64,000 bases of DNA. It comes from Dichotomocladium elegans. Taxonomy: Eukaryota > Mucoromycota > Mucoromycetes > Mucorales > Lichtheimiaceae. Below are positions 27,200-48,649 of the stretch, in pieces. Numbering within the stretch: the first letter of the stretch is position 1; every line of letters starts with the position of its first letter. The position numbers and the translations under genes were made by a program. The stretch lies in contig JAIXMN010000017.1 of assembly GCA_025716815.1 (NCBI GenBank), forward strand, positions 496,001-560,000, in the 5' to 3' direction. The notes beneath the pieces are model-generated. The model did no database searches, was not told the origin of the DNA, and worked only from the letters and a program-made list of their open reading frames with translations.

Positions 27200-28190
27200 T
27201 GAACGAAAGAGTTGCTTTTTTTGCCGAGTGTTTGCAGTAGTATTTGTTTTTCTTCGTCAATGGCGAGAAAAGTATCTGTGACCGTTCAGGATTGTTCTTT
27301 TAGTTCATGCAAATCAACCCACCAGAACTATGGCAAGTACATGTCTCCGCTGCCTATGCAAGGGATGGAAGTTTGTTCAACAATCAATATGCCTTTTCCA
27401 TTCTATGATGTAAGGCGCTTTCATGACATAGAATGTGGCAGCGTTTAGCATTGTCCTTGTGTAGGTTGAATCCGGGAACTTTTTGCAGCGGAGCATAGCA
27501 GAGGCGATATTGCTTGAATAAATGAGATATCACATCAAACATTCAATATCCACACACTTGGTTTTGATATAGCACCACGAGTACCTCCCCCCCCTGCAGT
27601 CCATGAAGGGATAACGTCCGTGTTATGGGGCGTGCGCTGTGTATTAAACCTTTACTGCAATGGAGTTTCCAGTTTATTTTTGGCTGGTGATTGCTTGGGT
27701 ATCAAGCTACGTTTTATTGGAGCCTGATGCTGAAATTGCTCTCAAGATGGTAGTTGTCTTTGCTCTTGTTTTAGATACTGTAGAGACTGCAAAAAGTCGC
27801 TTTCTTGGACCATGTCATGCTGCTTCATGTTCATATCGAAGCCAGACTTATAAAGGAAAACACAGTTTTCTTCTAAAATCAATATCAGTCATCTCCCATG
27901 GGCGCACCCAAAGGCGCTCTTTGATTTTTGCATCACTGTTCCTGTCTACAGGCTGAAACCGAACCATTTTCAGTGACAGGTTGCACTCATTTTTCCCAAG
28001 TCGATGGAGAGCTTCGTGTTCGATACTTTTAAGACCCTCCAATTTCTGGGGGCAATTCTCATCAACCCATTCTAAAAAAAAAAAAAAAGTAGCAATCTTA
28101 CGCTCTTTGTTGAGAAGACGTGAACGACCTCTGCCTCTACGTATTTTGAAAATACTGCCAGGGTCCTTTTCGTACTGTGATGACCATCGC
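27200..28190 (-). mobile_element. degenerate Tc1/mariner-superfamily (IS630-like) transposase remnant
   Basis: On the minus strand the decayed protein reads, in order across several frames: a GRGRSRLLNKERK helix-turn-helix-side block (near 28120); the block from LEGLKS to ECNLSLKMVRFQPVDRNSDA; KIKERLWVRPWEMTDIDF; NCVFLYKSGFDMNMKQHDM, corresponding to the first catalytic NCVFLDESGF-x-xNM(K/R)R motif; and then TRAKTTTILRAISASG. This order and spacing match fungal Tc1/mariner transposases. The catalytic DE is changed to YK in this copy, and stops and frame changes are frequent, so it is dead. Terminal inverted repeats were not located. The 5' limit is near 28190; the 3' limit is uncertain. Confidence 0.7.
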
Positions 28191-28461
28191 TGAGTTGAAC
28201 GAACGTGGATTCCAAGCTATTCTGCAGCAGCTGATGCACTCAAGATCTTCTCAAACAACATCCTTTTGGGTTCGCAGCAACAAGCTCAGAGTTATTACCG
28301 CTGCAAGAGAGACTACGTACGCGGATATTCTGTGCGAGAACAAACGGATTGAAGAGAGTACGTTTCCTCATCAACATCGTGTGGCCTTGCCCATCTTTGT
28401 GAAAGGAAAAGAAACGGCGAATTTTTTGTGCGACATCTTTTGCCATGCATGCTTTTGGTTT
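28191..28461. other. short open block of unknown nature
   Basis: A plus-strand open frame begins at 28177 (MMTIAELNERGFQAILQQLM) and runs about 98 codons, with a reasonable amino-acid composition in its first 60 codons. It has no recognisable motif, lies beside a dead transposase and has no convincing splicing partner. I leave it uncalled. Confidence 0.3.
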
Positions 28462-30796: not shown

Positions 30797-32447
30797 TAAT
30801 GGACAGAGAAGGGAGCTTCCCGGAGTAGCTTAATAACCATTGCTAAAGTTGTTGTTGGTCGGGTCACACACAAAGCAAAACGTTCACATTTGATTATCCC
30901 CGTTTTCGTTTTCTCTCTTCCTTCCTTCTCATCCTCTCGGATGGACCCATATCCTAAAAGCGCATTCCGTCGTATCACCTCAACCACAGCCCCGCTCGAG
31001 TTGATTCTTCAAAACAGGAGGGAGGCGGACAGTGACAACGCATCATCGTCTTGTCCCAAAGGTTGCGACGTCTGCCAATCAACAACAACATGTCTCGAGA
31101 CACCCTGCAGGCGCAGCATGTTTGACATGATCCGACAACAGCTCGCGCTGGCCCGCCAAAGAGCTTTTTCTTCTTCGTCGTCGTCATCGTCATCATCCGC
31201 CGCTGCTGCCGCCACAGGATTCAAGCTAGCAATTGCCCGTCAAGGTGTTTTGAGGGAAGATATTAATGCAGAGCCTGGGTTTCTTCGGGAAGCATACGAT
31301 ATCCTACAACCTGTCTTAAACGATTACCCCCGAAACCACCAACTCCAACACCAGAGTATCTATTACGACGCCAAGGCCAATCCTGTTAAGCATTTCAACG
31401 CCTTCTTCCAGCTTGCACGTGTTTGTCAACAGAACGGAATACGCGGATTCAACTGTTTTCCACTTCGTCGCTCGTGGTCACCATGCTATATGGAGATCGA
31501 TACGAAAATCCTTTGCTACCATATCCTGGGCTGCAAAATGGAATCCCACACACGCAGTATGGAGTACTGGAGACGGGTTGTAGACCTGAAATCAAGAGCT
31601 TTCAAACCCCAAGAATCCGAGCTGCTCCAATTCCGTGGGACTATTCACACTGACGGCGTCGGTGTTACTGTGTTCAAGAAGACAAATGGCCTTCAATCGG
31701 GTTTCGGACAGAGATTTGGCATCCAGAGCGAAGATATCGAGTACGTCACCCCACAGATAGTCCGGAACGAAGACTATAGAAGACAATGGGTCACCATTGA
31801 TCCTGGCAGAAGGGACCTGTTGTATTGCGTTCATGAGAACTCTTCACCCGACAACCACCAGACCTTCCGATATACAAAGCAGCTTCAAGATCATACACGG
31901 GAGACCAACCGGTATCGCAGACTCCGAGAACGACACAAGTTAGAGCGATCCGAGGTCGCGCTGGCTGAGCAGAATCTACCTCAATTTCGAAAGTCATACG
32001 CTTTCCGTGCACAACTGCGACGGATACCTCGCCGCCAAGAACCGTGTCTCTGTAGTTCTCAAGTCTTTCTACGCGACAACCACTACGAACCACCCGAACC
32101 CGCAATTTCTTTATCGAAAACTTCGCCTGTCAGCATTTTACAACAAGCAGCAAGCAGATGAAAAGCTTCTCGACTCTTTGAATGCGGAAGTTTGGCAGTA
32201 GGTCTGTTTTCGTGATGGGAAATTGGTCTGCGCCGCATACCAGATATCACGAGCCTATCCGTGGTGTCGGCTTCCGGCGGCTGTTGAAGAAGAACAATTG
32301 CAATATTTATTTGATCGACGAGTACAAGACAAGCAAGTGCTGTCCTGTATGTGACAATGAAAGCCTTGCTACCTTTAAAATGGTTCCTAATCCACGCCCA
32401 TATCGACGACCCGACAATCCGCTCACGATCTGCCGTGGCCTGCTACG

Positions 32448-32512
32448 GTATGAAGGATGGGCATGTTGTGTTTATATTTCCAAAAAGATTTTAATATTAG
32501 ATGTTTCAATAG
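32448..32512 (+). other. 65-nt intron inside the Fanzor zinc ribbon
   Basis: Donor gtatga follows CTACG, and acceptor ttcaatag precedes ATGCACAAAT. Removing it joins CRGLLR to CTNQNCTAG, restoring the conserved GLLRCxNxxC of the family and the reading frame of RuvC-III. An earlier AG (ending ...atattag) would insert extra residues. Confidence 0.8.
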
Positions 32513-32731
32513 ATGCACAAATCAAAACTGTACAGCAGGCATGGCAAAGGGTGTTCGTCAACCAAGGTTATGGAACCGGGATGTGGCGGCGGCGGCTCTC
32601 AACATGCATCATATCCTCCGGGGTCTTTGGGAAGATGGTATCATCCCAGCAAGGTTTCAGAGAAGAAATGCTGCACAAGCGTCCGCAGCTGGTGGAAGGC
32701 CACACTCACCTGAATCAGAGCAGCAGCGCAG

Positions 32732-32890
32732 CGTGAGACCACGACGGGCAAGGCCAGGATGGCCACGAGGTGCACGCTCTGGGCGGGTCGAGACGACCGT
32801 AACCCCCGACCAAGAATCTTCCGCGTCAGTTATCGCTGACGCACTCAGGATAACCACAGCCCTTCGGGGCAGGCCCCTTCCTTTGGAAGG
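32732..32890 (+). ncRNA. candidate Fanzor guide-RNA scaffold (fRNA/omegaRNA), hairpin array
   Basis: Six small perfect hairpins lie in a 159-nt stretch at the 3' end of the Fanzor frame: 32732-32743 (CGTG/CACG), 32752-32764 (GGCC/GGCC), 32786-32798 (GGTCG, AGA loop, CGACC), 32823-32842 (GCGTCAG, 6-nt loop, CTGACGC), 32859-32870 (GCCC, TTCG loop, GGGC) and 32876-32890 (CCTTCC, TTT loop, GGAAGG). In this family the guide scaffold overlaps or immediately follows the 3' end of the nuclease ORF, and the guide is taken from the sequence just beyond the element end. Position and structure fit; expression is not shown. The hairpins overlap the predicted C-terminal tail codons. Confidence 0.6.
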
Positions 32891-32909
32891 ACGGTGTGTT
32901 GTAAGTTAA

Positions 32910-33331
32910 CGGGATTGGAGAAGGCGTAGTGTTCTCTGTTGACTAGCAGGTTTTAATCCATGAATGCGAAATCTTTTTACCTACTGATACGACAACTTTA
33001 TACAATTCTATGCGACATATCTTTTTGAAAATAAAGTATGCTCACCAAAATATTGGGTCTGTGGTCAGTCATGGAGGGTAGGCTGGCTATTGCAAGAGGG
33101 CAACCTATCCCAGCCCTCCAGTACAATGCATAAAAAATGATCGCTTCGATTTATGGCGGTACAATAATAATAGGAAAACATAAAAGCAGCTGGACACATC
33201 CGATAATATAAGATCAGGGAAGAAAAGGAGAAAGATCAAGTGTGTGTGGTTAGTAGTAGTTTGTAGCAATAGTAAACAAAAGACCGAGGCCGAGAGCGGG
33301 CAATAAGGGGGGGTATAATAAATATAAAAGT
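32910..33331. other. intergenic, Fanzor right flank
   Basis: About 420 bp between the Fanzor stop and the convergent TBC gene. It is AT-rich (for example 32985-33030) with no coding frame. If the hairpin array is a guide RNA, its guide segment should lie at the start of this stretch, just after about 32891-32920. No terminal inverted repeat or target-site duplication was identified by eye. Confidence 0.45.
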
Positions 33332-45933: not shown

Positions 45934-48649
45934 TTACCACATCCCTCTCCTCCCCTCGTACCACCCGCAGAACTGAAAAAGAAAAAGAAAAGGATCTCTT
46001 GTGCAAAATTAACCATTCCTCCCTTAACATCTCACCTGTCCCATTTTTACATTCATATATTGTGCTGTACATATGTGCCTTATTTTCCCACTTCCTTTGT
46101 ATTCTCGGTTTTACTTCCCGAATCTCGATTACATTACATTACATTTCATCCTTCGCTGTTGATGTGTAGGTATCGCGCATTGCTATTGCCAGACATGGCA
46201 AGATTCAGCTTGTCACGGTTGCTGATGCAACTGAAATTGTATGTGCAGCAATGAAACTCACCTATTGCTGCTCGGTCGTTTCTCTCTCTCTCTGAAGGTG
46301 CATCACACGTCTATGTGATCATTGTCATCTTTTGATTCACAAAAAATATCTTATCGTGAGGAATAGATACGATAGGATATTTTTGGCCACCAAAGGCATT
46401 TAGCAGAAGCAAATAGAAAAAGATAATAATCTTGTCACGCTCCTCTGTATTTGGGCTCAAGAACCGACGAAGGAGTAGAGCAAGAGTATAAAAGACGGAT
46501 CAGAAGCTTCTCCTTAATGCCAAAACTGTACCATAAAGACCATATGTGCTGCAATTTTTATATATAGCCTACGGGTATCCAGGACATAACTCGAAGCATT
46601 ATAGTATTTCAGAGAGAGGCATGCGTTTTTTTTTTATTTTCTTGCTAACCGACGTTCCTTTGCTTTAACATATACCAGAGAGGAACGTTCGTTCTGCAGG
46701 TTGATTAATTGTGCGTTGTGGGCTGTTTATGTGTATATTTGACATACCATGGGACCTGGTCTGTTCGATGCGTGGTGCCGCAAAAAGAAACATTCAGATG
46801 CATGATAGCCAAGGCGAGACCGAGACTGGGGAACCATGCAATTATCAGTTTGCATCTGAATTTAAAAGGACAGTTGGGCATTCATGCAAAGTGTTTTGGT
46901 GTATGGCAAAAAGAGTGATCATGTGAGTCCAGTCATATTGTCCGATTCTGTATCTTCAGTCGGTGATCTTGCTGGGTATGGATACGCAAGGCGCGTTAGC
47001 AGAAGGATAACCACCATCTGGTGTTACAGAATTAATTGCGCTCGCTTTGACGTCCTCACTCTAGCTCTGGTTACACCAAATGTAGCGGTGGTAATCGACA
47101 GACCGTTCCCGCATACAGTGTAGTCCAGGAATCCTCAGTCCTTCACCACGATTAACCTATTCACTGTATTTTAAATTTTTCAAGGGGGGCAGAAACGGTT
47201 GTCTCAAAAGGAGGATAACCTGCTTTTTCCAACAGAAGTTTGCTCTGACGAAGCGGGCATCAATCAGCAGTTCCTTCAACGGTTCGGCTACTTTACGACT
47301 GTCATTATTAAACCGATGGTCGGATGTTGAAAGCAACTCACCCCATTGTACGTAGCAGCGCTTGCTAGATCTTTGTGCAGCGTTCCCCAATAGGATTTTC
47401 ATTAGCCGCTAGTCCGCATCCTTTTCATTCATGGCTAATGAACAGCAAACGTAAAAAAATCCTTGCCAGATGTCCTGCGCAAATATATTCAACACATTAA
47501 AAAAAATGTGCAGATTCTTATTTACTATTGGGTCTGTCATGCCAGGAAGGGGCGCGTTTGCCAGCGACATAGCATTAGCAGTGGCTGTCTTCGCAAGTCT
47601 AAAATTTTGGTTAGAATCTATCATCGGGGTGCGTTTGACAAGCTTCCTCGTGCTACGTCTTTTTGGATACAGTATAAATCTGGGCAAACGCGACTTACTG
47701 GTTTTTGTATGTAATCCTGCGACTTCTGAATTGGCGGGGTGCGACCTGGATTGCGGAAAACAGTCTATAAACGAAGAAAGGGGTAACGGAATGGGGAGAG
47801 GCGAGGAGATTGAAGGGGAGGAGGGACACTGTGGAATTCTCTTGCTTCGTAATGCCATTGAATCTTAGAGATGGAGCATTAAAAAGAAAATGAACACGGG
47901 TCTCATAAGTTGAGGAGATGAAGACTGTAGACTCTCTGCTACTATCTCTCTCTCTTTCCCTCTCTCCGGTCAGTGTTCCACAAAATGGTAATAAGCTGTG
48001 CAATTTAGGCTGCTGCTGCACCCCGTCTGAGCCAAGCAGACTAAGCGAGACCATCTTGGAGAAATAACCGCGTGCGTAGGTTATGTAGACAGAATATATA
48101 CACCATATGAATAGAAGGGGGGCTGTTGAAAGAGGAGTGATGGAAGGAAGGAGGAGGCGATGGAAGGGAGAGTGGATGAGAAGAAGGCAGGTCCAAAATT
48201 AGGACTTTGATCTTTCCTTTTCCTTCTGATCCATCCCATTTGGAGAGAGTGTGCTTGAGCCCATCCACATCCCAAAACACCTCATCGTCCTTTCGCTTCA
48301 AAGTAAAAAATAAAAAAAATAAAAAAGCTAAATTTGGCCGGTACAAAAATAGCAGCGATTCAAGTTCCACACACACACGCACACACAAGAGCATACACAC
48401 ACACACACACACACACACACAAGCGTGTAAAGATAGGTCCTTTTTTTTTACATGTCGGACCAGGCGCGAGTCCTCTTTTTCCTCCCCTTCTCTTCTCCTC
48501 TTTCCTCTTTTTTTTTCTCTTTTTGCATTCCTTCATTTCCTGCTTTGCGCTCGAGTGCATTCACTTAATTCCTTTTGACACTCTTCGCTTGTGTACATAT
48601 ATAGACTCCATCGCACTCATCTCTCACTTTCTGAGAGACATATCCTATT
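45934..48649. other. intergenic region with chitin synthase promoter
   Basis: About 2.7 kb with no confident gene. Overlapping open frames on both strands at 47409-47868 have no recognisable domain. The plus-strand one (from ATG 47470, MSCANIFNTLKKMCRFLFTI) is partly hydrophobic and may be fortuitous. 48070-48640 is pyrimidine-rich with simple repeats and is the likely promoter and leader of the chitin synthase. Confidence 0.45.
48368..48421 (+). repeat. (CA)n microsatellite, interrupted
   Basis: CACACACACGCACACACAAG followed by a purer CA run to about 48421, in the upstream region of the chitin synthase gene. Confidence 0.9.

Follow-up and report, generated by a model that had tools for sequence, protein, structure and literature searches.

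A conserved stem-loop unit, most likely Fanzor1 omegaRNA-like, in Fanzor1-carrying and transposase-encoding mariner-type elements of Dichotomocladium elegans

The closest described counterparts of the locus analyzed here are Fanzor1 systems. The omegaRNA of the Parasitella parasitica Fanzor1 (PpFz1) is 75 nt long, with an SL1 of 7 bp and an SL2 of 4 bp (PMC11423790), while the SpuFz1 scaffold comprises 75 nt plus a guide of 14 to 15 nt (PMC10432273). In S. punctatus, Fanzor-less "ghost" omegaRNA loci were counted at 134 against 42, and the 3' inverted repeat is part of the Spu-1 omegaRNA. Saito et al. report that they found the Spu-1 repeats to contain no transposase, and they name action in trans as possible (PMC10432273). 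Fanzor1 has also been described in Mariner elements with TA duplications, some of which encode only Fanzor1; RNA structure is not among the features covered by the excerpt of that report (PMC3627910). For the SfAV Fanzor1 reRNA, the scaffold reaches the TIR and TSD, and the published Fanzor1 guide RNAs include both (PMC10711439).

The D. elegans element shares mariner-like ends and TA duplications with the Mariner elements that carry Fanzor1 (PMC3627910), and it resembles the SfAV element in being a non-autonomous DNA transposon that encodes only Fanzor1 and bears TIR and TSD at its 3' end (PMC10711439). As in Spu-1, a fungal Fanzor1 is accompanied by a structured unit, which follows the stop codon and precedes the right end, and by many similar Fanzor-less loci; unlike in Spu-1, these loci include mariner transposase elements.

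The window analyzed is a stretch of 64,000 nt (contig JAIXMN010000017.1, positions 496,001 to 560,000). Its plus strand, to which all features listed below belong unless stated otherwise, carries a Fanzor1-bearing element of the Tc1/mariner type in a 5'-truncated copy (31211..33036), the right end of which reads ...GAAAATAAAG and is followed by TA; the right terminal repeat plus TA is found as an exact TTTTTGAAAATAAAGTA at 33022..33038. Homology to the family begins only at 31211. According to the alignment with family copies, 31211..32447 is a remnant of Fanzor1 exon 1 that has lost its N-terminal part, 32448..32512 is a predicted intron (GTATGA...CAATAG), whose counterpart in the intact copy L032 measures 69 nt, and 32513..32802 is exon 2, which encodes the RuvC-III motif NRD as well as the C-terminal tail. 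With copy L005 as the reference, +1 frameshifts were located at 31989, 32187, and 32781, the last of which puts the family stop codon (32800-32802) out of frame. The initial annotation had placed a Fanzor ORF here; the family assignment holds, but the truncation and the frameshifts make the copy a pseudogene, which, judged by its sequence, is no longer a working nuclease gene. Upstream of the truncation point, a serine/alanine-rich frame at 30890-31210 continues in frame into the Fanzor remnant, giving an ORF of 423 aa; other element copies have no match there. The minus strand carries left-part fragments of the same mariner clan at 27685-28404 (68-91% identity to elements A and E) and, at 47710-47770, a short fragment that resembles the outermost 60 nt on the left side of the element (78-81%).

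A search of the D. elegans genome (39.4 Mb, 122 contigs) with 30881-33000, in which 40 of 340 candidates were scored, returned at least 41 matched stretches, the window included, the other 40 showing 93-96% identity. The Fanzor1-carrying element is thus far represented by tens of copies, of about 3.9 kb when full. Ten copies start with TATACACC (seven), TATACACT (two), or TATATACC (one), and AAAGTA closes all 10. Of 30 family loci, 28 yielded the right end, each with a different flank; the other two, L017 and L025, were left out of later counts. The terminal inverted repeat appears imperfect by eye. Read from the ends, these features fit a TA duplication and a Tc1/mariner-type element, and the clan was found to combine TA duplication and terminal inverted repeats with a DDE transposase.

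The nature of the encoded protein was examined in L032. Removal of the predicted intron from this copy leaves an open frame of 709 aa and joins the motif CHGLLR-CTNQNC of the zinc ribbon. The spliced frame contains NRD and CPVC/CTNQNC, and its segments IDPGRRD and DEYKTS align with segments of SpuFz1; the catalytic acidic residues of RuvC and the zinc ribbon that mark the family are both present. Exon 1 of L032 matches SpuFz1 of Spizellomyces (8gkh) at 4.2e-43 and the P. parasitica Fz1 (9cf0) at 1.2e-117, and the Parasitella protein (PDB 9cf0-9cf3; PMC11423790) is the closest solved protein to L032. Between two aligned stretches, about 94 chain residues of 9cf0 have no match in L032, a gap that probably corresponds to the FRI insertion of about 100 aa named in the Parasitella paper. 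Based on this homology, for which L032 and not the window copy was used, we assign the protein that intact copies encode to Fanzor1. We identified 118 relatives, the named ones belonging to fungal genera that include Mucor, Rhizopus, Syncephalis, and Coemansia; none was found in viral contigs.

Searching the genome with the exon-1 protein (71 of 860 candidates scored) gave at least 80 matching stretches, 19 of which span the whole query without a stop. They reveal, besides the family of the window (family A), a second Fanzor family, B, with 51-58% amino-acid identity (L042, L043, L045-L047, L049, and L050). L044 (G000:C57) and L048 (G000:C68) represent further Fanzor types, with 49-52% identity and R/G/P-rich C-terminal tails, and neither an SL1 motif nor the shared right repeat was seen in the stretch fetched for them; an open transposase frame of 475 aa lies near L044 on the opposite strand. 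Fanzor types C and D showed no SL1-SL2-like motif in about 1.6 kb of 3' region.

Six perfect stems had been reported between 32732 and 32890, and all are present there: stem 1 (CGTG/CACG, 32732-32743), stem 2 (GGCCA/TGGCC, 32752-32764), stem 3 (GGTCG/CGACC, 32786-32798), stem 4, hereafter SL1 (7-bp GCGTCAG/CTGACGC with the conserved loop TTATCG, 32823-32842), stem 5, hereafter SL2 (GCCC-TTCG-GGGC, 32859-32870), and stem 6 (CCTTCC/GGAAGG, 32876-32890), which belongs to an extra segment of family A only. Since the family stop codon is 32800-32802, stems 1 to 3 are coding in intact copies and stems 4 to 6 lie in the 3' non-coding part. The density of hairpins also exceeds chance, with 14 starting points of perfect stems (at least 4 bp, loops of 3 to 8 nt) against 4.2 ± 2.3 in dinucleotide shuffles, none of 2,000 reaching as many. 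The comparison of folding energy with shuffled controls, in contrast, failed for the 159 nt as a whole (z -1.11; 31 of 200 shuffles equally good), and a stretch of 351 nt gave z -0.51, with 33 of 100 shuffles equally good. For the 57-nt part from SL1 to SL2, chosen after the fact, z is -4.0 (0 of 200 shuffles), and the matching A, B, and E stretches give -3.7, -2.1, and -3.4; F-type units fold weakly, with z of -0.5 and -1.0 in two stretches. The folding signal of the 159 nt is therefore local, in stems 4 and 5.

Stems 1 to 3 find no support as part of a conserved scaffold: they are coding, no covariation was seen in them, and they are not preserved in the family-B alignment. Stem 6 is likewise unsupported, since the blocks of types B, E, and F are without the insertion that contains it. 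These stems, without conservation across element types, and the ordinary energy of the 159 nt would be expected if the hairpins had arisen by chance in a GC-rich coding tail and had no function. Against this, which we hold to be very improbable as an account of the array, stand the excess of stems and the covariation of stem 4 described below; chance is refuted for stem 4 and stands for stems 1 to 3.

Within family A, the mean diversity over 27 copies besides the window is 0.017 for 32732-32890, 0.017 for 31217-32445, and 0.028 for 32891-33038. This variation is too low to test structure, and the test comes from diverged elements. In family B, GTGTCGG/CCGGCAC replaces GCGTCAG/CTGACGC around an unchanged loop. 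For the SL1 set, rows were selected by motif and two motif matches in flanks were dropped; L057 and L073 are without SL1, L065 was missed by the motif, and L077 was typed by its letters. The 20 distinct SL1 sequences compared come from types A, B, E, and F; in them, 93.6% of cells are paired, and the covariation score is 0.686 against 0.284 ± 0.035 in shuffles (0 of 500), slid controls staying at or below 0.149. Cells changed on both sides number 35 against 11.9 shuffled (0 of 500), in shuffles that ignore relatedness. Of the five measures taken, two do not rise above the shuffles, namely, how many pairs have a double change (five of seven against 4.5; 272 of 500) and how many further pair types occur (11 against 11.9).

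Because the SL1 rows had been chosen by motif, we also ran a genome-wide pattern blind to pairing, which fixes only CCG, the loop GTTAYCGC, and the final Y. It occurs at 323 sites, and the reversed pattern at 28. Among the 100 sites listed, which are the first by contig order, 63 pair at five of five free positions and 27 at four of five, the mean being 4.47 pairs against 2.71 with the arms dealt anew (maximum 3.08 in 1,000 deals); these sites comprise 56 distinct strings, 23 fully paired, and 18 distinct arm pairs. The covariation across paralogues that had been set as a check of the scaffold proposal is thus strongly borne out for stem 4, by the double changes as by the genome-wide sites. 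Stems 4 and 5 form a conserved structure, in which the SL1 loop is kept while the arms change in step. Such covariation fits RNA or single-stranded DNA alike, RNA being the ordinary reading. A pseudoknot of the SL1 loop with GGATAA or GGTAA looked suggestive by eye but was inconsistent across types and was not counted.

For stem 5, the same check is supported by the outer pairs, on a smaller and partly selected tally. The SL2 core CC-TTYG-GG occurs in types A, B, and E and in the F copy L069, and in 23 of 24 distinct blocks, which had been pre-selected for such a core or TCCGGG. Its outer pairs vary in a paired way between types (C-G/A-U/U.G/U-A and G-C/U-A); B has a one-base bulge, and some copies are broken.

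The 5' edge of the unit common to the element types is the leader ATCTTCC (ATTTTCC in the family) at 32816..32822. When A is compared ungapped with E, B, and F, respectively, identities number 12, 10, and 9 in the 40 nt upstream of the leader and 3, 7, and 3 in a 17-nt upstream stretch, against 4 to 7 of 7 in the leader and 8, 8, and 7 of 8 in the SL1 loop. The downstream edge after SL2 is GTAAGT (32901..32906), shared by types A, B, and most E and shortened to TAAGT in most F; from there to the right end, A is homologous to the transposase elements. Compact B and F units measure 51 to 52 nt. The stop codon precedes SL1 by 19 nt in family A and by 6 nt in four of six family-B copies (12 nt in L043, 33 nt in L050). 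In types A and E, the stretch beginning at the downstream edge (GTAAGT...CTGACTAACAG; 32901-32949 and its counterparts) looks like a short intron, its 3' part reading TTGACTAGCAG in the window copy; in B and F, the 3' AG is absent and the branch-like motif largely kept.

On the 3' side of SL2, no covariation was found, the terminal repeat is invariant in the aligned rows, and the stretch on to the right end folds no better than chance (z -1.4 in the window, +0.2 in L074). A third stem, AGTYRA...TYGACT, in the intron-like stretch was unsupported (two double changes in 196 cells; 18 of 500 shuffles), and the last 75 nt or so at the right end were discarded as a stand-alone omegaRNA, being AT-rich with a consensus fold that consists of the invariant TIR hairpin only. 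A natural compact version of the whole arrangement is seen in an element of the transposase clan, L074 583-701, with 119 nt from the leader through the terminal TA. Rfam gave no match for the window at gathering scores and none for five loci at E values up to 1.

The right-end sequence has 209 exact sites in the genome, and its reversed pattern none. With 100 right-end sites listed, we inspected 741 nt at each of 20 that lie outside the Fanzor rows. The SL1 loop motif is present in 13 of the 20 tails, including L064, a family-B copy that is 95% identical; three (L057, L065, and L073) have damaged or partial blocks, and four (L062, L063, L066, and L071) lack the motif while sharing the right repeat. 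Three further tails with the motif, L077 to L079, were added, the leader being altered in L077. Element E (L076 plus L058) is 78% identical to the Fanzor element A in its left part and 88% in its right part, and it carries a degraded mariner transposase (DDE_3, 6e-18) with no Fanzor seen; in the single E element inspected for this, roughly 590 nt separate the end of the transposase frame from the unit downstream. By our reading of frames, F elements hold transposase remnants, and the transposase piece matches at least 150 places in the genome. The structure had been proposed as the guide scaffold of the nuclease: it does occur with Fanzor, but it is not exclusive to Fanzor elements, since transposase elements carry the same unit.

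This distribution bears on whether the unit could instead be a cis-acting or non-coding RNA element of the mariner clan and not a guide RNA, a reading that we regard as less likely. Its role could for example lie in the mRNA 3' end, export, or regulation, inherited by transposase and Fanzor transcripts alike. It would account for the unit in transposase elements where no Fanzor was seen, for an excess of unit sites in the genome (323) over the stretches matching Fanzor (at least 80), and for a 3' edge well inside the element. It fits less well with the position of the unit, almost at the Fanzor stop in two families but, in the E element inspected, some 590 nt beyond the transposase frame, and with unit dimensions that match the solved Fanzor1 omegaRNA. 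Moreover, the four tails that retain the right repeat without SL1 suggest that the unit may be dispensable for the end, deletion being possible.

On balance, we consider it somewhat probable that 32816-32870 (leader, SL1, and SL2) is the core of a Fanzor1 omegaRNA on a Tc1/mariner-type element, with a scaffold extending to the right end and the flank as guide. In families A and B, the unit follows closely on the end of the Fanzor ORF; it comprises a 7-bp SL1 with a further stem-loop, and shows compensatory change in SL1 and, in part, in SL2. With regard to the location assumed at the outset, the position 3' of the Fanzor stop is retained for stem 4 in both families (6-33 nt), whereas stems 1 to 3 are coding. 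The order of a 7-bp SL1 and then a short SL2 is that of the Parasitella omegaRNA (PMC11423790), by a comparison of layouts and not of RNA sequences. Unlike the Parasitella RNA, the D. elegans unit sits 105-255 nt inside the element, as counted from loop to right end in the copies measured (514 nt in L059).

In the mechanism that we propose, the RNA would start near 32816 and be bound by Fanzor through SL1, and its scaffold would take in the terminal-repeat hairpin and the TA and so reach the right end at 33036. The first 15 to 20 nt or so of flanking DNA would serve as guide, the RNA-Fanzor complex would cut matching empty sites, with the effect that copies are kept, and Fanzor-less transposase elements with the same unit could supply guides in trans. 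The initial annotation looked to a transcript ending just past 32890, an end that finds no support; a flank-derived guide requires a scaffold to 33036/33038, about 150 nt further, because published scaffolds include the terminal repeat and take the flank as guide, if this is valid here. Unlike in SfAV, we infer this extension to the TIR and TSD by carrying it over from the published cases. That the SL1-SL2 unit itself stops short of the right end, unlike published Fanzor1 guide RNAs, counts against an omegaRNA core.

A more compact omegaRNA, with a scaffold that ends after SL2 at GTAAGT and the next 20 nt or so of the element itself as guide, would agree in size with the Parasitella RNA, since the B and F units of 51 to 52 nt, plus about 21 nt, come close to the published 75 nt. 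We deem it improbable. The sequence after SL2 is nearly fixed within families, and a search with it, allowing up to three mismatches, found 72 sites for A (control 0) and 19 for B (control 3), many of which coincide with family copies, although they were not matched one by one; in families A and B, no outside target was recognised. With an unchanging guide, retention as known for OMEGA systems would no longer work.

Taken as an omegaRNA core, the unit may further belong to a division of labour, which we put forward tentatively, in which Fanzor-only and transposase mariner elements share both terminal repeats and the guide-RNA core and the transposase moves them all. The guide loci that load a nuclease encoded by other copies might then number as many as a few hundred, with many lying in transposase elements. 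Such a system, which we think possible but less likely than not, would amount to the action in trans whose possibility Saito et al. raised. Among the papers listed by a literature search, which covered few subscription papers, we saw none that describes the unit in transposase-encoding mariner elements.

Most likely, as far as sequence comparison can tell, the unit is Fanzor1 omegaRNA-like and common to transposase-encoding relatives. Should the omegaRNA reading fail, what is left is a structural motif conserved in mariner elements and without a match in Rfam. If it is an omegaRNA core, one genome would supply a single nuclease group with a few hundred stems of natural variation, in which evolution has already introduced the compensatory mutations; Fanzor ghost loci would be tied to a known transposon class, and a Fanzor serving other transposons in trans would become directly testable.
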